From the NCBI GenBank assembly GCA_036001465.1, contig DASYUH010000006.1, positions 1 through 64,000 on the forward strand: a stretch of DNA of 64,000 nucleotides, written 5' to 3'. Made by a program: the position numbers and the translations under genes. The number at the start of each line of letters is the position of its first letter. Position 1 is the stretch's first letter. A model generated the notes under the pieces. The model was not told where the DNA came from, did not search any database, and saw only the letters and a list, made by a program, of their open reading frames with translations. Below are positions 10,988-27,234 of this stretch, in pieces. The stretch is from Candidatus Polarisedimenticolia bacterium (lineage in GTDB: Bacteria > Acidobacteriota > Polarisedimenticolia > Gp22-AA2).

Positions 10988-13900
10988 CTACCTGAGGGTG
11001 CGCGGAACGGTGATTTCAACCTGAAGCCGGCTTTCGAGCCCCGCCGCGTCGGTGATCACGTAGCCGAGCCGGTACGCCCGTCCCGGTCCGGCGGCGGAGC
11101 GCTCGGCCCGCAGCAGCACGTCACGGTCGTCCCCCGGATCGACCTCCTGGACGTCCCCGGACGTGCGGCCGTCGCCCCCTCCCGGGGCATCGTCCGGCTC
11201 GCTGCTCGTGGCGCTCTCCAGGCGTACGGCGATCGACGGGGAGCACGTGTCGGACGCCTGGAGGTCGATGTGCACCGGAACGAGCCGATGATCGGGCGGC
11301 CACAGGACGGGCGGCCGCGCGACGGCCGCGGCCACCGGGGGCCGGGTGTCGGCGACGGTCACGGTGAAGCGGGCCTCGTCGATGAGCCCGCCCGTCCCGC
11401 GCACGCGGTGAACCAGGCCGTGCTGGCCCAGGGACAGCAGGACGATGGCGCGCTCCCCGGAGGCAACCGGGCGCACGTCTCCATGGTCTTGCTCCAGGAG
11501 CCACAGGTGCTCGAGCGGCCCGCCGTCGGGATCGAACGACCCGGATCCGTCGAGGGCCACCTCCGTACCCAGGGGGGAGCTGCACTCGACGACGGCGGCG
11601 TCCGGCCGGGCCGCCACGGGCGAATGGCCGAATACCAGGAGCGTCTCGCCCCGCCAGAGGACATCGCGCCGGCCGAACACCTCGGGCGTCCCGCCGTTCG
11701 TGGCGGAAAGGGACAGCGTCACCTCGAGTCCCGGATCGGGGGCCGTTCCGAGCGCCGCCAGAGGGACCGGACCCGGCAGCGCCGACTCCGAGTAGTCCAC
11801 CTTGATCCGGGTGACGTCCTGCTCGGCGGCGAGAATGGCGCGTGCGGGCTCGATCGAGTCGATGCGCAGGTTGAATCGACGGAACGGATCGACGATGGTG
11901 CGGGCGCAGGCCGTGGCGGGCTGCCCGAGACCGTGAAGGGGGAGCGTCGGCCCGAAGAACTGCCCTTCGCTGCCGCAGGCGCCGGCCGCGATCTCGTAGT
12001 CCTGGATGCCGTCGTTGCACGCCAGGATCAGGTCCTGGTCGACGAGCGTCGGCTCTCCCACGGAGGCGTTCAGGTACGCCAGCCCCTCTCCCGGACGTTC
12101 CTCCAGGGGGAGGCCGCGGCCGCAGTCGACGGCGTCGCTCGATGCCTCCGAGCTGGCCGCTTCCAGAAGGACCAGGAGACGCTCTTCGCGCGTCGCCAGG
12201 ATCGCCCTCCCCCGCAGAGGCTGGCCGTCCGGATCGGCCACCCGCGCGCCGGCCGCCAGGACCGGAACCGGATCCCCCTCGATCGCGGCGGCGAACCTCG
12301 CCGGGACGATCGGGTCGAGCGCCACCGTCACCTGGCAGGCATCGCCCGCGCCGTCGGAGTTTCCGTCCTCCTGCCCCGGGTTCGGATCCGCCGGACAGTT
12401 GTCCTGGAACGGGCCCACCCCGTCGCCGTCCTCGTCGAGGGAGGAGAGGACCAGGACCCCGGCGGACGGATTGGCGGCGAGGATGCCGGTTGTGACGGGC
12501 GGGACCTGGGGCGGAATCAGCCGGCCATCGTCCGCGACGCCGAGCGTCGTGATGGTGTTCGAGCCGCGGAAGACCACGTGGAGCCTCCGGCCGGACGGTC
12601 CAAGGGCGAGCCCCGCAGGCGAGTCGGCGCCAGCGCCGAGAAGGAACGGAGATCCCGGCGCGAGCCGCGGGGATCCGGCGGCCGCCCCCTCGATCGCCGC
12701 CACCGCGTCGATCCCGGGGAGCGAAACGAACAGGCGGTCCTTCTCCTCGTCCGGGGCGATGCCCAGCGTCCCCCCCACCCGTCCCAGGTCGAGCGACGAG
12801 ACACCCAGCGGCCCGCCCGGGGCCGCGACCACCAGGGTCACCACCGCCGTCCCGGGAGGCGCCTGCCCCACGGCAAGGAGCCAACCCGCGTCGGGGGCTC
12901 CGGGCGGCGCTGCCGGCTGCACGGCGTGCGGCAGGAAAGCGACCGGCCCCGGTCGCTCGATCCCGGCGACGGCCGCCGGCCATCCGGGGACCGCCTCGAG
13001 CCCCCCCGGCTCCCTGACGGCGAAGAGCGCCACCTTCCCTTCGTCCGGCAGGGCCACGGCGAGAAGGGCCCCGTCGGGCGCCAGGTCCATGCCATCGGGG
13101 ACCCCGCCGATCGGGGTCGGCGCCACAGACAGCGGGGTCAGCCTCCCCGATCGCGCCACGGCGAACGGCACCAGGACGCCGGCCCCCCCCTCGGGAACCC
13201 CCGGCTCGCGGCCGGCGACGTAGAGCGTCTCCCCCGCCGGGTCGATCGAGAGCCCCAGCGCCTCGTCGAGCGGCACGGCGTAGGGGGATCCGATCCCCGG
13301 TGAGAGAACCCCGGAGCCGGCGAGATCGAAGACCGTCACCGAGCGTGAGAGCGGATTGAGCGCCACGAGATGCGCGCCTCGACGGGCGAAGGCCAGCCCG
13401 GGGGCGGACGAAGGGGGCGGGTTGTCCTGTCTCCCCGATCCGAGTGTCAGGTAGGGGGATCCGGGCAACGGCAGGAGCGTCCCGGTCGCCTTGGTCTCGA
13501 AACCGGCCGCCTGGTTCAGGGGCGACAGACCGTTGAGGTAGAGGAAACCCTCCTGCTGGAATCCCTTCTGGCAGGCGTCCCCGCCGTCGGCATGATCCAC
13601 GTCCGCCTGGTCCGGGTTGTACACCGCCACACAGTTGTCGCAGGCGTTGCCGACATGGTCCAGGTCGATGTCCTCCTGCAGCGGGTTGGCCATTCTCGGA
13701 CAGTTGTCGATCGTGGCGCAGCTCCCGTCCCGATCGACGTCGTTGATCGGGTCCCCCGGGCACGCATCGCAGACGTCCGCGACCTGGTCGAGATCGGCGT
13801 CCGTTTCCAGCGGATCGAAATCGAGCGGGCAGGTGTCCAGGGGGGCCAGGAGGCCGTCGCCGTCGGGATCGGGGTCGCAGGCGTTGCCGGCTCCGTCGCC

Positions 13901-16639
13901 GTCGGAGTCCGCCTGCCCGGGGTTCGAAAGCGCGGGACACGTGTCGCAGGCGTCCCCCGCCCCGTCCACGTCGGTGTCCGCCTGGTTCGGGTTCGCGACG
14001 CCCTGGCAGTTGTCGACGTAGGCGTCGATGCCGTCGCCGTCCTCGTCCCCCGAGGGGACGAACACGATGCCGCCGAGCGGCCGCCCGCCGGTCGCCCCGG
14101 TCTTCTCGGCGGGGCCGGTCGGCTCGAGCGCACCATCCGTCCCGATGCGGAAGACGGAGACGCCGTTCGACCCGTCGTTCGCCGCGAACAGGAAGCGTCC
14201 CAGGGAATCGATCGCCATGCCGACGGGGACGCGGGCGAGCGGGGCGTTGGAGAACGGCGTCCCCCGCATCTCGGCCATGGCGCCGGACGCGTCCAGACGG
14301 AAGCCGGAGACGGAGTTGTTCCCCTGGTTCGAGACGTACAGGAACCGGTCCCGGGGCGACACGATCACGCCGTTGGAGTCCAATCCCCCGCCGCTCAGGG
14401 GAGAACGCAGCAAGGGACGCGAGCGCCCGTTCGGATCGACGGCGAACGCCCCGACGATTGCGGGGCCGTTCGAGGAGCTGGCCAGATACATCCGGTTCCC
14501 CGAGGCGTTCCACGCCAGGCCGGCCGCCGTGCCACCGGGATTCCCGACCAGCGAATCGGGGAGGATGGGAAACGGCTCGTGAAAATCCAGAGCCCGCGCC
14601 CCGCCGAAGTCCGGCAGGGAGACCTCGATGAACCCCCCGTGCGCCGGGAACGCCATGCCGCTCACCCTTCCGGGGACCGGAGCGGGAGAGCGGGGAATCT
14701 GAATCAGGTTGAGGTTGAACGACTGGATCTGCAGGAAGGAAATCCGCCCCTGCAGCCCGACGGCGAGGTAGAGAGCGCTCGGATGCACCGCCACCGCCGT
14801 CGGGGAGAACCCGCCCACCTCGCGGGGGAACCCGGAGGCGAGGACCGGCGTCCCATCGGGCTCCAGGCGGAAGGCGCTGACGTCGTGGCTCCCCTCGTTG
14901 GTCGCGAACAGGGTGGGCGGCGCGAGACGCGCGAGCGCCAGGCGCGGCGGAGCGAAAAAGGTCGAGCCGGCCGGCCCGCTGCCACCGGTCGGGAACGGCG
15001 AGCCCTTGAGGCGCCTGAGTCTCCCGAGGGTGTCGACCTCCCACGCGGCGAGCGAGTTCTGGAGAGCGTTGGTCAGGACGTACAGCCGGCCGATGCGGAC
15101 GAACGGCCGGGCGCAGGCGTCCCCTTCGCGATCGCCGTCTTCGTCCTCCTGCCCCGGGTTCGGTGCCGCGGGGCAGTTGTCGCAGGGATCGCCCTGGCCG
15201 TCGCCGTCTGCATCGGTCTGTTCCGGGTCGGCGGCGGCGGGGCAGACGTCCGCGAGGTCGGCGATCCCGTCGCCGTCCCGGTCGTCGTCGCAGGCGTCCC
15301 CCAATCGGTCGCCGTCCTGATCGCGCTGCCCCGGGTTGGCGACGGCGGGACAGTTGTCGCAGGCGTCCCCCCGTCCGTCGCCGTCGCCGTCCGCCTGGGA
15401 TGGATTCGCGACGGCGAGACAATTGTCCGAAGGGGCCTCGACGCCGTCCAGGTCTTGATCCCCGGCCGGCGCGAACGCCACGCCGGCCAGGGGGAGCCCG
15501 TTGACCGTCGTGCGCACGCTGTCGGCCGCCACCTCGAGGCGGCCATCCGGATTGGGACGGAAGACCGAGACCGTCCCCGAGAGCGCGTTCGCGACGTACA
15601 ACAGGCGCCCGAGCGGATCGGACGCCATGCCGGTCGGCGCCAGGCCGAGAGGCGCGTTCTGGAACGGCGAGCCGGGAGCGGGGACCGGCCTGCCGTCGGC
15701 CCCGATGACGAGGCTGGCGATCCGGTTCTGGTTCACGAGCGTGGCGGCGAGCAGGCCACCATCGGGGAAGAGGTGCAGGATGTTGGCGCTCCCGCCAGGG
15801 GCGCCGAATGGCGAGCCCGGCGTTGAACGGAGCGCCCCGTCCTCACCCAGGGAATAGAGGCTGAGCTTGAACCCGGCGGGGTCGGCGTCGGCGACGTAGG
15901 CCGAGGCCCCCCCCCGGCCGAGCGCGATCCCATCCGCGGTCCCGGCATCGGTCGCGAAGGGGGAGGCCGGAACCGGCGCCAGCCCGCCGTCGTGGGCGAT
16001 TCCCAGGACGGCGATCCGCCCCAGCGCGGGCAGCGTGGCGAGAAGGAAGCGCCCATCCGGCGTGACCGTCATGCCGTTGGGCGCCGACTCGACGTCGACG
16101 GGATCGAGCCTGGCAAGGCCCCCGCTGCCGTCCACCGCGAACGGCACGATCGTGCGGCTCTCGGAATGCCCGACGAAGAGGAACCGGCCGTCGGGCGTGA
16201 GGGCGACCCCCTCGGGTCGCGATCCTCCGGAGGCAAAGGGAGAACCCGGCACCGCCTGCAGCGCCCCGTCCCCGGCGATCGTGAAGACCCCGATGTCGTC
16301 GCTCCCCCAGTTCGCGACGACCAGCCGTCCACCGGCGGCGCTGATCCCGATGCGCGGCGACGCCACGAACACCGCCCCGGACGGCCCCGTCCCTCCCGTG
16401 CTCCAGGGAGACCCGGGCAGGACTTCGAGCGAGCCGTTGGCGAACGCCGCCAGCCCCGAGACGACGTTCCCCGCCGCCGCCACGTTGCGGTCCGATGTCC
16501 CTTCGTTGATGTAGATGTAGCCGATCAGTCCGGGGGCCACCAGGGGGGATCGCCTGCCGCGTGGCAGCGCTCCGCCAGCGGCCGCCGCCACGAGAAAGGC
16601 GGCCGCCGTCCACGAGAGGGCCCGGAAGCGCGGCGACAT
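10988..16639 (-). CDS. giant secreted protein: three beta-propellers, TSP3 calcium repeats, PKD-like C-terminal module
   Basis: An exported protein of 1883 residues. A signal peptide (about 1-27, hydrophobic AAAFLVAAAAGGALP) is followed by three homologous YVTN/lactonase-like propeller regions (~35-390, 515-860 and 1030-1400). Each is rich in GSPF and FVANxGSxxVSxF-like strands and each is followed by thrombospondin type 3 calcium repeats of the DxDxDGxGDxCDNCP type (~393-508, 863-1027 and 1400-1437). After ~230 residues without a recognised fold come a PKD-like domain (~1668-1760, LDGSGSFDPDGG) and a final module (~1761-1883, LWPPDHRLV). That C-terminal pair recurs in the protein at 37558-40593. 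No sorting signal is obvious. A surface or extracellular structural role is inferred; no enzymatic residues can be named. Confidence 0.88.
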   Translation of the reverse strand: MSPRFRALSWTAAAFLVAAAAGGALPRGRRSPLVAPGLIGYIYINEGTSDRNVAAAGNVVSGLAAFANGSLEVLPGSPWSTGGTGPSGAVFVASPRIGISAAGGRLVVANWGSDDIGVFTIAGDGALQAVPGSPFASGGSRPEGVALTPDGRFLFVGHSESRTIVPFAVDGSGGLARLDPVDVESAPNGMTVTPDGRFLLATLPALGRIAVLGIAHDGGLAPVPASPFATDAGTADGIALGRGGASAYVADADPAGFKLSLYSLGEDGALRSTPGSPFGAPGGSANILHLFPDGGLLAATLVNQNRIASLVIGADGRPVPAPGSPFQNAPLGLAPTGMASDPLGRLLYVANALSGTVSVFRPNPDGRLEVAADSVRTTVNGLPLAGVAFAPAGDQDLDGVEAPSDNCLAVANPSQADGDGDGRGDACDNCPAVANPGQRDQDGDRLGDACDDDRDGDGIADLADVCPAAADPEQTDADGDGQGDPCDNCPAAPNPGQEDEDGDREGDACARPFVRIGRLYVLTNALQNSLAAWEVDTLGRLRRLKGSPFPTGGSGPAGSTFFAPPRLALARLAPPTLFATNEGSHDVSAFRLEPDGTPVLASGFPREVGGFSPTAVAVHPSALYLAVGLQGRISFLQIQSFNLNLIQIPRSPAPVPGRVSGMAFPAHGGFIEVSLPDFGGARALDFHEPFPILPDSLVGNPGGTAAGLAWNASGNRMYLASSSNGPAIVGAFAVDPNGRSRPLLRSPLSGGGLDSNGVIVSPRDRFLYVSNQGNNSVSGFRLDASGAMAEMRGTPFSNAPLARVPVGMAIDSLGRFLFAANDGSNGVSVFRIGTDGALEPTGPAEKTGATGGRPLGGIVFVPSGDEDGDGIDAYVDNCQGVANPNQADTDVDGAGDACDTCPALSNPGQADSDGDGAGNACDPDPDGDGLLAPLDTCPLDFDPLETDADLDQVADVCDACPGDPINDVDRDGSCATIDNCPRMANPLQEDIDLDHVGNACDNCVAVYNPDQADVDHADGGDACQKGFQQEGFLYLNGLSPLNQAAGFETKATGTLLPLPGSPYLTLGSGRQDNPPPSSAPGLAFARRGAHLVALNPLSRSVTVFDLAGSGVLSPGIGSPYAVPLDEALGLSIDPAGETLYVAGREPGVPEGGAGVLVPFAVARSGRLTPLSVAPTPIGGVPDGMDLAPDGALLAVALPDEGKVALFAVREPGGLEAVPGWPAAVAGIERPGPVAFLPHAVQPAAPPGAPDAGWLLAVGQAPPGTAVVTLVVAAPGGPLGVSSLDLGRVGGTLGIAPDEEKDRLFVSLPGIDAVAAIEGAAAGSPRLAPGSPFLLGAGADSPAGLALGPSGRRLHVVFRGSNTITTLGVADDGRLIPPQVPPVTTGILAANPSAGVLVLSSLDEDGDGVGPFQDNCPADPNPGQEDGNSDGAGDACQVTVALDPIVPARFAAAIEGDPVPVLAAGARVADPDGQPLRGRAILATREERLLVLLEAASSEASSDAVDCGRGLPLEERPGEGLAYLNASVGEPTLVDQDLILACNDGIQDYEIAAGACGSEGQFFGPTLPLHGLGQPATACARTIVDPFRRFNLRIDSIEPARAILAAEQDVTRIKVDYSESALPGPVPLAALGTAPDPGLEVTLSLSATNGGTPEVFGRRDVLWRGETLLVFGHSPVAARPDAAVVECSSPLGTEVALDGSGSFDPDGGPLEHLWLLEQDHGDVRPVASGERAIVLLSLGQHGLVHRVRGTGGLIDEARFTVTVADTRPPVAAAVARPPVLWPPDHRLVPVHIDLQASDTCSPSIAVRLESATSSEPDDAPGGGDGRTSGDVQEVDPGDDRDVLLRAERSAAGPGRAYRLGYVITDAAGLESRLQVEITVPRTLR

Positions 16640-16647
16640 CGTCCCTT

Positions 16648-16677
16648 CTCATACGACTGGCGGGTGGCCCAGGTCAA
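16648..16677 (-). promoter_or_regulatory. sigma70-type promoter of the giant secreted protein gene
   Basis: Read on the minus strand, TTGACC (16677-16672) is followed after 18 bp by TATGAG (16653-16648), which lies 8 nt before the ATG at 16639. Transcription would begin within one or two bases of the start codon, giving an almost leaderless mRNA. Confidence 0.6.
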
Positions 16678-16864: not shown

Positions 16865-17242
16865 TCAGCGAGCCACGGCAGCAGGCTCAAACAATTCCAC
16901 AGGATTCCCATCCGGGTCTTCGGCCAGTATCTGCCTACCCCCGGGTCCGACAACGATGTCATTGCGAAAGTGGACACCAGCCTGTTTCATTTGAGCGACG
17001 CGCGCGGGCAGGTCTTTGACTTCGATAACGAGCCGGTTCCATCCGCCGGGCTCTGGCCGTCGTCCGTCAGGCATAGGGCGAGCAGCTGAACTCTGCGGCC
17101 CACTGAGCCACAGCGTCAGGTCGTCCTTTGAAACGTAAGCAAAAGCCGGACCCATCTTCTGTTGGAGCTTAAACCCACATTTCTCCGTATAAAAAGCTAT
17201 CGCAGCGTCGACGTCCGTGACGAAATATCTGATCGAGGCCAT
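16865..17242 (-). CDS. VOC-family (glyoxalase/bleomycin-resistance-like) protein
   Basis: A 125-residue single vicinal-oxygen-chelate domain. The N-terminal half has MASIRYFVTDVDAAIAFYTE; the C-terminal half ends with DPDGNPVELFEP, the classic VOC metal-ligand strand with a terminal Glu. The ATG at 17242 has GGAG about 9 nt upstream. Proteins of this kind are frequent passengers of integron cassettes. Base composition is lower in GC than the flanking operons. An attC-like site lies on its 5' side (17301-17339), but none was found on its 3' side, so it may be the terminal cassette with a lost attC, or a resident gene. The substrate is unknown; it is often annotated as a resistance or lyase protein. 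Confidence 0.85.
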   Translation of the reverse strand: MASIRYFVTDVDAAIAFYTEKCGFKLQQKMGPAFAYVSKDDLTLWLSGPQSSAARPMPDGRRPEPGGWNRLVIEVKDLPARVAQMKQAGVHFRNDIVVGPGGRQILAEDPDGNPVELFEPAAVAR

Positions 17243-17300
17243 TTCGTATGCTCCGCGTAGATGTTTGATGGTCCAATCTTGCCACCGTGGCAGGTGGCCC

Positions 17301-17339
17301 GCCCAACGCTCCGGCTAAGCTCCGGTCAGCTGGTTGGGC
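17301..17339 (-). repeat. attC-like site 1 (short)
   Basis: Outer boxes GCCCAAC (17301-17307) and GTTGGGC (17333-17339) are perfect complements enclosing only 25 nt, so this site is unusually short for an attC. It follows the DUF4386 gene and may be a degenerate or trimmed site. Confidence 0.6.
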
Positions 17340-17369
17340 GGCGACTCGTTCACGCTCGAACCACGCCCC

Positions 17370-18074
17370 CTAGTCCGGCTGCCATTTCTGCACGTTGACA
17401 CCCCTCACCAGGAGCCACAGGGCAAGCGACAGTTCCGCGATAAAGGCCGGAACCAGAACGGCGATGTTCACGAGTGTGGGCGCCAGCAGCAGCGCAAAGC
17501 TGTTCGTCAAATAGCTCACGCCCGCAATTTGCATCAGGATGCCAAGAATCTTGGGCAGAAATTGGGACTTGAAAATTAGATACCCAAGTAGAAGGCACTC
17601 GAATCCGAAAAAGATGAGGCTGATATTGAACCCGTACGTGTGCGACCTGTTAGAGAGATACGCAAGAACGTGAAGCTGTTCTGGCGTGAAGGCTTGCAGA
17701 TAGGACGCTTTACCCAATACGAACAAGGATGGAAGGAGGAACAGCTTGCTGGCGGACTCGAGAGTAATTGCGACCACATTGAACAGCACGGCCAGTAGCG
17801 CAAGATCCCGACTGACGGGCCTCAGCAGCACATAGAAGACGAGCGCGAGTGCAACCGAGCACGCCAGATGAAACAGGTTGGCCGCGATACCAAGGCGCCA
17901 GAGAAACTCAAAGGACCTGATGTTGTCGAGGGTGGCCGTTGCGTCGCCGGGCACGACGAGCTTATCCCTGACGAGCAGCTCACCCATCAGGCCGGCAGCA
18001 ATGATGATCAAATAAAGCGCCCCGCCTATCCGTGCATAGGTTTGCGGCGATAGCTCGACGCCACGACCTGTCAT
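17370..18074 (-). CDS. DUF4386-family membrane protein (cassette gene)
   Basis: A 234-residue integral membrane protein with about six hydrophobic helices, beginning near YARIGGALYLIIIAAGLMGE and ending with a helix before VRGVNVQKWQPD. The order of helices and the YLIIIAAG and NRSHTYGFNISLIFFGFECLLLGY segments match the DUF4386 family, whose function is unknown. A longer reading from GTG 18101 would begin inside the attC box at 18093-18099, so the ATG at 18074 is preferred; AAG lies just upstream. It is the only gene of its cassette, with its stop 31 nt from attC site 1. DUF4386 genes are common cassette passengers. Confidence 0.85.
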   Translation of the reverse strand: MTGRGVELSPQTYARIGGALYLIIIAAGLMGELLVRDKLVVPGDATATLDNIRSFEFLWRLGIAANLFHLACSVALALVFYVLLRPVSRDLALLAVLFNVVAITLESASKLFLLPSLFVLGKASYLQAFTPEQLHVLAYLSNRSHTYGFNISLIFFGFECLLLGYLIFKSQFLPKILGILMQIAGVSYLTNSFALLLAPTLVNIAVLVPAFIAELSLALWLLVRGVNVQKWQPD

Positions 18075-18092
18075 CTTGTCCTCTTCGTCGCC

Positions 18093-18187
18093 GCCCAACA
18101 CTCCCGGTCAGCCGCGGCTGGCGGATACCCCGTGTGATGCGGCCACCCAACCTGCCGCCCGCCAGCGGTTGGAGCGGGTTGTCGGGC
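18093..18187 (-). repeat. attC-like site 2
   Basis: A 95-nt imperfect palindrome. Outer boxes are GCCCAAC (18093-18099) and GTCGGGC (18181-18187), one mismatch from perfect complementarity. Inner arms around GTCAGCCGCGGCTGG and CCAGCGGTTGGAGC pair, with an extra base in the right-hand arm. Confidence 0.75.
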
Positions 18188-18200
18188 GCCTTGATCGGTC

Positions 18201-18594
18201 TCAGTTGATGTTGCCTGGACCCTCTGGGGTGTCATTGTTGTAGTCGAAAAAGCAGATCTCCGGATAGCGCGTTGCCTTGTCCTCATGCGGCCGGTGGTCC
18301 TTCGCCCAGATACGGCCTCCCACATTCCAGTCCGGGTTGCGCGCCAAGATGAGGTCCAGATGATCCGGGTGAACATAGGCGTAGAGCAACCCTGGAACCT
18401 AAGACTGGAGGGAAGATCCTTCACGAACAGCATTCCCGCGTACCTTGAAGCATCGGCCCTCTTCTCCTCGATCATCATGCGCGCGGTTTGCACTGCCTGA
18501 CGATCAGGTCATCCGGGCCCGTAAGCGCTCCACATGCTGTAAGGAGAATGGAGCCGATCCCAGCTGAGAACGCGGCCGCCCTGGTAATCGCCAC
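18201..18594 (-). pseudogene. decayed small lipoprotein gene (cassette gene, two frameshifts)
   Basis: Three consecutive reading frames on the minus strand join into one plausible ~130-residue protein. The first, from GTG 18594, is a lipoprotein signal (MAITRAAAFSAGIGSILLTAC, with the lipobox LTAC) running to DDLIVRQ. The second gives VQTARMMIEEKRADASRYAG...LPSSLRFQ. The third gives LLYAYVHPDHLDLILARNPDW and ends PEGPGNIN at 18201. Each junction needs a single missing base. No single frame is longer than about 60 codons of coherent sequence. It could be a pseudogene or carry sequencing errors. No family was recognised. Confidence 0.5.
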
Positions 18595-18619
18595 TGTATG
18601 TCATGCCTCCTCTGAGTCC

Positions 18620-18713
18620 GCCCAACGCTCCCGCTCAGCCGCGGCGGGTGCATGTCGCCGATGAAACCACCGCGCACATGCCGCCCGCCGGCGGCTGCAG
18701 CGGGTAGTTGGGC
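18620..18713 (-). repeat. attC-like site 3
   Basis: A 94-nt palindrome with perfect outer boxes GCCCAAC (18620-18626) and GTTGGGC (18707-18713). Inner arms CCGCTCAGCCGC and GCGGCTGCAGCGG pair except for one extra base in the second, as expected for the attC L boxes. Confidence 0.82.
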
Positions 18714-18720
18714 AGCGCGC

Positions 18721-19128
18721 TCATTTCGGCGTCGGTGCAGACTTCCGCCAGGTACCGTCTGCCTGCTTGCGGTACGTGACTCCAAAGTGCTTCATGCGAG
18801 TCACCGGACCGACCTGAGTCCCGCTCACGACAGCCAAAATCGCAATCATGCTCTGTCCACCTTGCTCGGCCTCGGGCTTGAGTAGCTCTACGAGCTCATC
18901 AGCCGCACGGTTGAACTCGATCGGGTCATTTGCAGCAGAAGCACGATATTTCAGTATGAGGATGCTTCCATCGCTGACAACCGTGGTCTGCTTCGAGAAG
19001 ACTTCGTACGTCCGGCCAGATGGTGTAACAAGCTGGGACCCCTTGAGTTCGCCGCGACATCCAGCGATGACGAGCATACTGACGAGTGCATGAATGATTC
19101 GACCGGGACGCGTCAACCCTTGAATCAA
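18721..19128 (-). CDS. small lipoprotein of unknown function (cassette gene)
   Basis: A 135-residue putative lipoprotein. The N-terminus has a basic stretch (LTRPGRIIH), a hydrophobic core (ALVSMLVIAG) and Cys in the lipobox VIAGC. The mature part has a TPSGRTYEVFSKQ segment and ends VTYRKQADGTWRKSAPTPK, which resembles many exported cassette proteins but no family I can name. The TTG at 19128 is chosen because GGAGG lies 6 nt before it; a longer reading to 19161 would start without a ribosome site. The stop is only 7 nt from attC site 3. Confidence 0.7.
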   Translation of the reverse strand: MIQGLTRPGRIIHALVSMLVIAGCRGELKGSQLVTPSGRTYEVFSKQTTVVSDGSILILKYRASAANDPIEFNRAADELVELLKPEAEQGGQSMIAILAVVSGTQVGPVTRMKHFGVTYRKQADGTWRKSAPTPK

Positions 19129-19171
19129 GCACTTCCTCCCGCGGTTACTTGGACTGCCCACTACGAGGTCT

Positions 19172-19273
19172 GCCCAACGCCGCGGCTAAGCTGCGGCGCG
19201 CGTGGCGCGACGCTGGCGTCTTACTGCAAGCGGCGTGACGCGCGGATCCGGCGGCTTCAACCGGTAGTTAGAT
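19172..19273 (-). repeat. attC-like site 4
   Basis: A 102-nt imperfect palindrome with outer boxes GCCCAAC (19172-19178) and GTTAGAT (19267-19273). These do not match each other, but GTTAGAT is the exact complement of ATCTAAC at the next site, the expected signature of a cassette that kept its own core site. Inner arms CGGCTAAGC and GGCGGCTTCAACCGG pair with one extra base. Confidence 0.8.
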
Positions 19274-19288
19274 GTCGTATCGATCGTT

Positions 19289-19933
19289 TCATTCTGCCAA
19301 CGGAAATGGCAACCGTCCACTAAACCAGCGGAGCTCAATGACAACCCTCGTGCTGTCTGGTGCTGGAAAATAGAATTCTCTATCTGCCGCAACAACTACT
19401 TGCCATTTGGGACCAAGCCATAGCCCAGAACCAAGCCCTAGGCCTGCTACTCCACCGATGCCGTGGTCCGGCTCTTTAGTGCGGTACGCCGACCCCAGGC
19501 TGAATCTGCTAAATATACGGACCGGACCCAGAGTTAAGAATGAGAGGTCACCTCCCAACCCAGCGGTCCAGATCTCTTGCTCGCTGCTATCACTCTCACT
19601 CAACCAGAAATATGGGCCGAAAGCGCTCGGGAAGGGTCTCGAGAAGCCGCGTTTGTAGGGATCTTCTTCCCAGCCTCCCCAGCTCAGTCTGAACCCGTCC
19701 AACCGGTCGTGACTCTCCGGACTGCCCTGTTCGGCAAAGGCGACCGAGAGAAACCCGCCGCCCGGCATCGATTGCCAGTAGTGGCGACGATCAGAAGGTG
19801 TTTCGGAAGGCTGCGCACCTTGAGCGAGTAGTTCATTCGGGTCCTCGGACGCCCAGACGTCGTCTGGCAAGCAAAGGAAGCTCGACACCGCGCCCAATAG
19901 AATGCCGAAGATACAGGTGCGAAGTGTACTCAT
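19289..19933 (-). CDS. exported protein, possibly outer-membrane barrel-like (cassette gene)
   Basis: About 214 residues. An N-terminal signal (CIFGILLGAVSSFLCLPDDVWAS) is followed by sequence rich in aromatic and glycine residues in alternating patterns (FRLSWGGWEEDPY, FGPYFWLSE, GGVAGLGLGSGLWLGPKW), ending VVIELRWFSGRLPFPLAE. This suggests antiparallel strands of a small barrel or lipocalin-like fold. No family was recognised. The ATG at 19933 is preferred; an in-frame GTG at 19945 would add four residues and neither has a clear ribosome site. It is the single gene of the cassette bounded by GTTAGAT and ATCTAAC. Confidence 0.7.
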   Translation of the reverse strand: MSTLRTCIFGILLGAVSSFLCLPDDVWASEDPNELLAQGAQPSETPSDRRHYWQSMPGGGFLSVAFAEQGSPESHDRLDGFRLSWGGWEEDPYKRGFSRPFPSAFGPYFWLSESDSSEQEIWTAGLGGDLSFLTLGPVRIFSRFSLGSAYRTKEPDHGIGGVAGLGLGSGLWLGPKWQVVVAADREFYFPAPDSTRVVIELRWFSGRLPFPLAE

Positions 19934-19962
19934 TCGACCATTCACATCAATTGGACCAGAAC

Positions 19963-20057
19963 ATCTAACGCTCCCGCTCAGCCGCGGCGGGCGTACGCCT
20001 TCGTGACTTCAACCCCGTACCTGCCGCCCGCCGTCGGCCTGCAGTGGGTGGTTAGCC
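19963..20057 (-). repeat. attC-like site 5
   Basis: A 95-nt palindrome with outer boxes ATCTAAC (19963-19969) and GTTAGCC (20051-20057). Its inner left arm CCGCTCAGCCGCGGCGGG is nearly identical to site 3. GTTAGCC corresponds to the near-complement GGCTAAAC at 20929-20936, which marks the far end of the last cassette. Confidence 0.82.
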
Positions 20058-20079
20058 GACGCCGTCCCTACTTAGATGC

Positions 20080-20700
20080 CTAGCCTGATCCTGCCGCTCG
20101 CGCCTCTAACCCAGTCAGTTCTACCACGGGAACCGTGAACTCTGAAGATTGGTTCAACCGATTGGCTAGCCTGTTGTATTCCGCCACCCGAGCCGCTACC
20201 TCATGCTCGGCCACGCGCCCGGATCGGGCCAATACTGAAGTTGGCGCAGCCTCGGACTTCACAATCTGCGCCGCCAAGTAGCCGAACTCGAACAGCTCTC
20301 TGAATTCCCGACCTTCAGCGGTCGAAACGAAACCCGACGCGTCACGATCGGCTAATTGGCGGAGAATGGGCATGTCGCGTTCTACTCGCTTCTGTAGTTC
20401 AGTCTGCCACTCTTTGACTCGCTCCAGGTTGGCACCAGGAACCGGGCAGGCTGTGCCCATATAACTTCGTTCGTAGGTGCCGGTGAGGTCGTCCTTGACG
20501 AAGGTCAAGAGCGTGCCGCCGGTCCTGATATTGGCAACCATGGACAGGTCACCTTGGGCGCTCTCTGTCATGCCGAGCTTTTGCACCTGAGCGACATACG
20601 TCTGAAAATCGGCCGGACCTTCCCTGCGGGCCGAAAACTGTTCGCATGACAGACCTGCGATTAAGGCCATCACGAGGATGAGTACGTGCACTCGGGCCAT
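20080..20700 (-). CDS. exported protein of unknown function (cassette gene)
   Basis: A 206-residue protein with an N-terminal signal (VHVLILVMALIAGLSC) whose Cys could be lipidated, although Gly at -3 is not a standard lipobox. The mature part is mainly helical and charged (LERVKEWQTELQKRVERDMP, EVAARVAEYNRLANRLNQ), with an embedded TLLTFVKDDLTGTYERSYMGT segment. No family was recognised. The ATG at 20700 starts exactly at the signal; the same frame runs upstream to 20778 but that part has no signal character. The stop is 22 nt from attC site 5. Confidence 0.75.
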   Translation of the reverse strand: MARVHVLILVMALIAGLSCEQFSARREGPADFQTYVAQVQKLGMTESAQGDLSMVANIRTGGTLLTFVKDDLTGTYERSYMGTACPVPGANLERVKEWQTELQKRVERDMPILRQLADRDASGFVSTAEGREFRELFEFGYLAAQIVKSEAAPTSVLARSGRVAEHEVAARVAEYNRLANRLNQSSEFTVPVVELTGLEARAAGSG

Positions 20701-20966
20701 CTTCCTACCACGGCTCAGATGAAGCCTCTTGTCGGTCAATATACGCCGATGCGGCTGACGGCGACAAGCACACGGCACTATAGCGTCGTCGCGATGGACC
20801 CAGTAGCCCGGGCGGACAGGCGCCGACCGGGCGCGTCAGTTTGTGTGGGGGGAAGTGCGGGGTGAGGGTCAGGTCTCGAGCGTTCGCCGTACTGCATGCT
20901 GACGCTTGAGGGTCCCCGGTCGGCGTAAGGCTAAACGTCGTGGGCCACGGCTGGGTTCCATGGATC
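20701..20966. other. cassette leader and array boundary, no gene seen
   Basis: This holds the 5' leader of the last cassette and a GGCTAAAC (20929-20936) that nearly matches the complement of the core box of attC site 5, so it is the likely outer recombination boundary. No full palindrome, attI or integrase coding sequence was found before the cimA stop. Confidence 0.5.
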
Positions 20967-22784
20967 TCAGGCTCCGATCTCGGAACGTCCTGGATCGACC
21001 TCGTGCAGGATGACGATCGGCAGGCGCCCTTCGCCGCGCGGCTGGAGGCTGACGTTTTCGCCCGAACCGGCGCTGGCCCCTCCGACCTGCGCCTCGCTCC
21101 CGGCCTCCGCTCCGGGCGGACCGGCCTGCAGCGAGCCGGCCGGCAGGAGGCCCGCCGACCGTCGCAGCAGAAGGCCGTATTCGTAGCTCTCGACGATGGC
21201 GTGGAGCGTCGCGGCGATGATGTTCGGATCGACGCCGGTCGTGGCCCAGATCCGCTCGCCGTCTCCCATCTCGACGTGCACGCGGGTGCGGGCGGCGGTG
21301 CCGTCGTGCCCGTCGAGGATGCGCACCTTGAAATCGATGAGGCGCAGATCGCGGATCTCCGGGTAGGCGCCGGCCAGGGCGTTGCGCAGCGCCTGGTCGA
21401 GGGCGTGGGCGGGGCCGACGCCCAGGCTGACCGCGTGGATCTCCTCCTGGCCGACGCGCACGCGCACGGTCGCCTCGGGCGCCCCCGAAGCCGTCAGGAG
21501 GACCCGGTAGTCGACCAGCTCGAAGTAGCGCGGCCTCTTCCCCAGGGCCTCGAGGACCAGGAGGGTGAACGACCCCTCGGCGCTCTCGAACTGGAAGCCC
21601 CTGTACTCCAGCGCCTTGACGCGCTCGACCAGGGCGCGCATGGTTTCGGGCCGCCCCGAAAGATCGATGCCGATGGCGCGCGCCCGGTTCAGGACGTTGC
21701 TCGATCCCATCTGGTCGGAGACCAGGACGCGCGTCGTGTTGCCGACGACGGCCGGGTCGATGTGCTCGTAGGCGCGGCTGGACCTCTCGATGGCGCTGAC
21801 GTGGATCCCCGCCTTGTGCGCGAAGGCGCTCCGGCCGACGAATGGCTGGTGGCTTTGGGGGGAGCGGTTGGCGATCTCGGCGACGTAGCGCGAGGTGGCG
21901 GTGATCCGCTGAAGCCCATCCGGCGGCAGGCAGGACAGCCCCTTCTTCAGCTCAAGGTTCGGGATGACGGAGCACAGATTGGCGTTGCCGCAGCGCTCTC
22001 CGTAGCCGTTGATCGTCCCCTGAACGTGGCGGGCGCCGCCGGTCACGGCCGCCAGGCTGTTGGCCACCGCCAGCTCGCCGTCGTTGTGCGCGTGGATGCC
22101 GAGCGGCACGGGCGCCCCCAGCCGGTGGCGCGCCACCAGGGTCGCGGAGCGCACCTGCTCGGGGAAGGCGCCGCCGTTCGTGTCGCACAGGACGATCCGG
22201 TCGGCCCCCGCCTCGGCCGCCGCCAGGATCGTCAGGATCGCGTATTCGGGGTTCGATCGGCAGCCGTCGAAGAAGTGCTCCGCATCGTAGATGACCTGGC
22301 GTCCCGCCTCCTTCAGGAAGCGGATGCTCTCGGAGATCATGGCCAGGTTCTCTTCGAGCGTCGTGCGCAGCGCCTCGCGCACGTGATAGTCCCATGCCTT
22401 GCCGAACAGGGCCACCCACGGCGTGCCGGCGGACAGCAGGGCCAGGAGCCCTTGGTCCCTGTCGACGCGCCCGCGCACCCGGCGCGTGCTGCCGAAGGCG
22501 ACCAGTCGGGCGCGCGCCAGCGGCTCCCCCGCCGCCCGCGCGAAGAATTCCAGGTCCTTCGGGTTCGCGCCGGGCCAGCCCCCCTCGACGAAATGCACGC
22601 CGAGGCGGTCGAGCGCCCGGAGGATCTTCAGCTTGTCCTCGACCGAGTAGGAGATCTCCTCCGACTGCGCCCCGTCGCGCAGCGTCGTGTCGTAGATCTC
22701 GACCGTCGCGGGGAGCGACTCGCCGCGCCCCTTGCCGTCATACTCCGGCACCGGGGCCGGGATCGGCTTCAGGATCTCAGGCAT
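20967..22784 (-). CDS. cimA: (R)-citramalate synthase (CimA-type)
   Basis: A 605-residue enzyme of the isopropylmalate/citramalate synthase family that condenses pyruvate and acetyl-CoA to citramalate, the first step of threonine-independent isoleucine synthesis. The N-terminal TIM barrel begins [21 protein letters not shown] and contains [10 protein letters not shown], typical of CimA rather than LeuA. The metal-binding HAHND (~220) and GERCGNANL follow. The C-terminal third is a LeuA-dimer/allosteric domain (ELVDYRVLL ... [23 protein letters not shown]). The start overlaps the ilvE stop by 8 bp and it is the last gene of the branched-chain operon. A true 2-isopropylmalate synthase is encoded at the operon head, which supports a separate citramalate role. 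Confidence 0.92.

Positions 22785-25358: not shown

Positions 25359-27234
<1,876 letters not shown>

Follow-up and report, generated by a model that had tools for sequence, protein, structure and literature searches.

An integron cassette array with no integrase gene nearby, located between two chromosomal genes of a Polarisedimenticolia bacterium

Gene cassettes between cimA and a TSP3/lactonase gene

The window analysed in this study comprises bases 1–64000 of contig C6 from a Candidatus Polarisedimenticolia bacterium (Acidobacteriota), whose draft genome amounts to 4.58 Mb in 114 contigs. Six integron gene cassettes lie consecutively in this window between two ordinary chromosomal genes, and the integron integrase gene (intI) resides on a separate contig. 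The cassette array is real and lies internal to contig C6. Both flanking genes are on the minus strand. One (20967–22784), termed cimA here, encodes a citramalate/isopropylmalate synthase-like protein with HMGL-like and LeuA_dimer domains, and the other (10988–16639) encodes a protein with TSP3 repeats and a lactonase propeller, as judged by a family match, and has a homologue in a member of the same genus (G001). The units between attC sites have GC contents of 56–58% (approximately 57% for the entire block) compared with 71–73% for the flanking genes, and all of them are co-oriented, which agrees with a preliminary description of this DNA. An Rfam scan of the window at the gathering threshold yielded a SAM riboswitch (RF00162, 31059–31170, plus strand, 84.6 bits) as its sole match.

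The cassettes are all encoded on the minus strand and are numbered here from the cimA side. Cassette 1 carries a gene (20080–20700) for a protein of 206 amino acids, counted from its ATG, and cassette 3 carries a 146-amino-acid frame (18721–19161), both with lipoprotein-like starts. The 218-amino-acid frame of cassette 2 (19289–19945) has a signal-peptide-like (exported-like) start. Searches of these three proteins against Pfam and NCBIfam yielded zero matches, and no family is assigned to them. Cassette 4 (about 18188–18619) has no intact gene; three-frame translation reveals a 62-amino-acid frame (18201–18389) and a lipoprotein-like start in a different frame, and this cassette probably holds a decayed gene. 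Cassette 5 encodes a DUF4386 membrane protein (17370–18101, 243-amino-acid frame; PF14329, E = 2.2e-53), and cassette 6 encodes a VOC/glyoxalase-superfamily protein of 125 amino acids (16865–17242; PF00903, E = 6.4e-12).

The preliminary description proposed an array of single-gene units with exported or membrane products. With signal-peptide, membrane and lipoprotein calls made by eye, this proposal agrees with cassettes 1, 2, 3 and 5, but the VOC protein exhibits neither a signal nor a membrane segment. The six units include five attC sites, and four units consist of one gene and one attC site, the exceptions being cassette 4, without an intact gene, and cassette 6, without an attC site.

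Few relatives of these genes were found. No homologue of the cassette 1 protein was detected among the other 40 genomes of the class, and none of the decayed cassette 4 gene was found in the class. A plasmid search with the cassette proteins, which gave no homologue for those of cassettes 2 and 3, matched the VOC gene alone (68%, Sinorhizobium plasmid). A distant DUF4386 homologue adjoins attC sites on the intI-bearing contig (C33) of a genome from another genus (G030), and DUF4386 genes may recur as cassettes.

Five attC sites of the genome's own family

Two covariance models were used to evaluate the attC sites. Model R1 included the window sites and therefore cannot test them. Model R2 was built from 23 attC sites on contigs C109, C14, C8, C22 and C88 and contains no window sequence. 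Most of its members were first found with R1, which leaves R2 dependent on that search though not on window letters; the three C109 sites beside intI were picked by eye before any model existed. With R2, whose E-values (like those of R1) are rough, four minus-strand sites score strongly: site C (18620–18713, 94 nt, 85.3 bits, E = 1.3e-20), site E (19963–20057, 95 nt, 80.9 bits, E = 2e-19), site D (19172–19273, 102 nt, 54.5 bits, E = 2.3e-12) and site B (18093–18187, 95 nt, 47.2 bits, E = 2e-10). These end cassettes 3, 1, 2 and 4, respectively. The weakest score is that of site A, also on the minus strand (17301–17339, 39 nt, 20.2 bits, E = 0.0035), which ends cassette 5. The best other R2 match in the 64 kb window, with the reverse strands of A–E set aside, reaches 11.2 bits (E = 0.84), and the model scores the sites far above background. 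Five palindromes had been described as bearing RYYYAAC/GTTRRRY boxes; all five were located, but strict boxes occur in A, C and D only, with site E carrying GGCTAAC and the mutated R'' box of site B reading CGACAAC.

An unpaired central spacer and extrahelical bases of the bottom strand have been described for attC sites (PMC12901181). Site C, the best-preserved site, is predicted to fold on the bottom strand (-40.7 kcal/mol, z = -6.0) into a hairpin whose R box spans 7 bp, whose central spacer is unpaired (3/2) and one arm of which bears single extrahelical (bulged) bases. Extrahelical bases and a central spacer are also broadly present in the predicted fold of site E (z = -3.6). Energy-only prediction gives no attC-type fold for site D, yet this site aligns to the model. 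Site A (z = -3.2) retains both R boxes and the L' arm but is missing its hairpin centre, and its R'' box, extended to 13 nt, is a perfect complement of the opening of cassette 5 at site B. Elsewhere in the genome, another very short attC-like site (32 nt, C22:82582–82613, GCCTAAC...GTTAGAT) resembles site A; it lies within a cassette array, flanked by two full-length sites.

Site C shares 90.4% identity with a site at C14:3007 in the same genome but no more than 75% with any other window site. Site D has its nearest counterparts, at approximately 70% identity, among the attC sites of C8, C14 and C109 and not among the other window sites. The alignment of the 23 sites from outside the window has standard pairs in 95.6% of its cells, and 12 of its 20 arm pairs show covariation in which both partners change. 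By every measure, all 500 shuffles stayed below these values, and pairing fell to 29–41% in slid versions. The window sites and those of the genome's own integron form one attC family.

Each cassette of an array is flanked by a pair of complementary R boxes, one contributed by the attC site before it and the other by the site after it. The matched end stretches of the bounded window cassettes 2 to 5 are 9, 9, 2 and 13 nt, and three of these four cassettes have a GTTRRRY start complementary to a RYYYAAC end; the value of 2 nt belongs to the cassette ending at mutated site B. Averaged over 16 cassettes of four arrays, the matched prefix measures 9.0 nt within a cassette and 4.4 nt for random pairing; none of 20,000 random pairings (permutation test) gave a mean as high as 9.0 nt. 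By comparison, the two boxes of a single site match over a mean of only 4.9 nt. These matched ends provide strong evidence that the cassettes are real.

An uninterrupted locus in a congener

In G001, the cimA protein is 81% identical to that of the window genome and its gene ends at C4:26990, whereas the adjacent TSP3/lactonase gene (62% identity) begins at 27225. The same two flanks are thus about 235 bp apart, and a search of this locus for attC sites found none. On the cimA side, the window can be aligned to G001 as far as 20818; on the TSP3 side, the match picks up again at 16663. These findings indicate that the window block is an insertion, and the gene order, whose conservation in relatives would have spoken against mobile cassettes, is not conserved. 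We consider an insertion in the lineage of the window genome to be more likely than a deletion in G001, because the block has a low GC content and carries attC sites. The complete empty site comes from this one congener; G004, G005 and G006 could not be used for this purpose, as their contigs break off within cimA or the TSP3 gene or shortly past it.

The preliminary description extended the array to 20936, but this limit must be moved inward, since 20818–20966 is alignable to the sequence that follows cimA in G001. The array therefore starts between about 20805 and 20753. A hairpin after cimA (20818–20936) lies outside the array and is found once in the genome. We considered its palindrome (20820–20930) as a sixth attC site and rejected it: it has no R boxes, exists as a single copy in the genome, and has a conserved counterpart following cimA in G001 and, in part, in G006, which is from the same family as the window genome. 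A candidate start of cassette 1, GTCAGCC at 20759–20753, agrees with the expected GTTAGCC at six of seven bases, which is not significant given a chance of approximately 0.15 over the searched stretch (a rough estimate). At the opposite end, a search below 17301 gave no convincing attC match after the VOC gene, and the terminal cassette thus has no recognisable site. A stretch at each junction is unalignable to G001.

An integron platform on another contig

Although no intI is present in the window, as was noted previously, the genome does encode a full-length IntI at C109:102128–103159 (455 bits with the TIGR02249 profile, cut-off 265). Contig C6 has no match to this profile. We also looked for an intI remnant by tblastn across the 64 kb window and dismissed this possibility, as no match was obtained (best E = 1.8). 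The nearest solved structure to the C109 protein is integron integrase 2a3v of Vibrio (E = 2.1e-81). Three attC sites of the same family as those in the window directly follow intI. The C109 cassettes come after the 3' end of intI and are co-oriented with it, and the contig ends inside this array (platform at C109:102128–105261). The attI site presumably also follows the 3' end of intI, a placement based on position only. Genes preceding intI are also present at this locus in G001 and a further genome, G003, as would fit a sedentary chromosomal platform. Across the 41 species genomes of the class, IntI scores above the cut-off in 23 and an R2 match occurs in 25.

Models R1 and R2 locate further attC sites on contigs C14, C88, C8, C22, C66, C26, C37 and C3 of the same genome. 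Those of C14, C88, C8 and C109 are at or near contig ends and may be parts of one array. The attC sites that open contigs C14 and C88 coincide in position (41–137) and in score, which is probably due to an assembly break at a repeated site. The sites on C22, C66, C26 and C3 are internal to their contigs, where single matches constitute weaker evidence. The C22 cluster (C22:81978–83678) and a locus with one attC site in G001 (C54:15417–15510) share a homologous flanking gene, and no cassette DNA aligns between them; the two are possibly an older common cassette locus.

Origin of the array

With at least two attC sites and no integrase nearby, the array matches the published definition of a CALIN (PMC9024848), as the preliminary description had suggested. 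CALINs can arise by off-target insertion of cassettes by an IntI encoded elsewhere, by loss of intI, or by rearrangement (PMC8618304). We favour the first of these routes, with a probability of about 0.62: IntI acting in trans would have placed cassettes from the genome's own pool at a secondary site of the chromosome, where the array later decayed. Off-target insertion fits best because the platform resides at another locus that is shared in the genus, no trace of intI exists here, and the site is uninterrupted in the congener. By this mechanism, the integrase of the C109 chromosomal integron would have inserted cassettes, singly or in groups, between the post-cimA hairpin and the next gene, with the folded bottom strand of attC recombining with a non-attI site. 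Later decay would have removed the hairpin centre of site A, broken the gene of cassette 4 and cost the last cassette its attC site. Signs of decay are apparent in site A, mutated site B, cassette 4 and the missing terminal site. The junctions, with unalignable adjoining sequence and a far end without attC, are too eroded to prove insertion by IntI, and the insertion could be older than the species. Cassettes whose sites are intact (C, D and E) could still be excisable in trans.

The decay seen in the 39-nt site A, the broken cassette gene and the absent terminal attC would also suit a relic of a complete integron at this locus, from which intI was deleted and the cassettes left, and an origin of CALINs by degradation of integrons has been proposed (PMC9024848). 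However, the window retains no remnant of intI, the G001 locus has no trace of an integron, and the genus keeps its platform elsewhere, at a shared locus. We consider this origin unlikely. Improbable as well is the relocation of a piece of the main array by homologous recombination or another rearrangement, without IntI acting here. Large arrays with similar sites do exist, since the breaks of contigs C109, C14, C88 and C8 all coincide with or adjoin cassette arrays, and site C closely resembles a site of the C14 array. Nevertheless, native sequence matching G001 bounds the block on both sides, no attC-like repeat is present at its outer ends to guide an exchange, and tblastn of the six cassette proteins against the genome's other arrays examined gave no match. 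Mis-assembly or chance palindromes in GC-rich DNA can be dismissed almost entirely: draft genomes (here in 114 contigs) inflate CALIN counts by splitting integrons (PMC9024848), but this array is internal to its contig with both flanks following the G001 gene order, and the scores of four sites far above every other window match with an independent model rule out chance palindromes.

Beyond insertion in trans at this one locus, a more speculative and doubtful proposal is that the co-oriented-intI platform of this lineage repeatedly seeds cassettes into chromosomal intergenic spaces, and that attC sites of 32–39 nt (17301–17339 and C22:82582–82613) stay usable substrates.

Comparison with known systems

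This locus adds an example of off-platform cassettes, together with the empty site of a congener, from a little-studied class of Acidobacteriota. With its shared platform and variable satellite clusters, the genus could be informative on the relative frequency of CALIN formation by off-target insertion and by intI loss.

Under the IntegronFinder definition of a CALIN (PMC9024848), the likeness consists of at least two attC sites, co-oriented cassettes and no intI nearby. Nothing essential differs; the 39-nt site and the attC-less terminal cassette look like decay. The intI and attI that would make a complete integron are not found beside the array. Non-classical attG sites as insertion targets (Loot et al. 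2024, as described in PMC12901181 and PMC12444791) would account for cassettes in ordinary intergenic space; in the present case, G001 offers an empty site, with unalignable sequence at each window junction.

The Spirochaetota platforms with reverse intI (PMC9668308) resemble C109, where the 3' end of intI is followed by cassettes of the same direction, but they belong to a different phylum, and the C109 attI is placed by position. The off-platform CALINs of Xanthomonas (PMC12444791) likewise combine an intI at one conserved locus with extra attC clusters at other loci. They too differ in phylum, and the intI of the window genome is co-oriented with its cassettes. Integrons are already known in Acidobacteriota (PMC8618304), published attC-taxa models cover Acidobacteria, and off-platform CALINs with a kept platform have been reported in Xanthomonas (PMC12444791). 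The window array is thus a further case of two published phenomena, acidobacterial attC sites and off-platform CALINs. The short attC sites and the co-oriented intI of this genome are worth a note.
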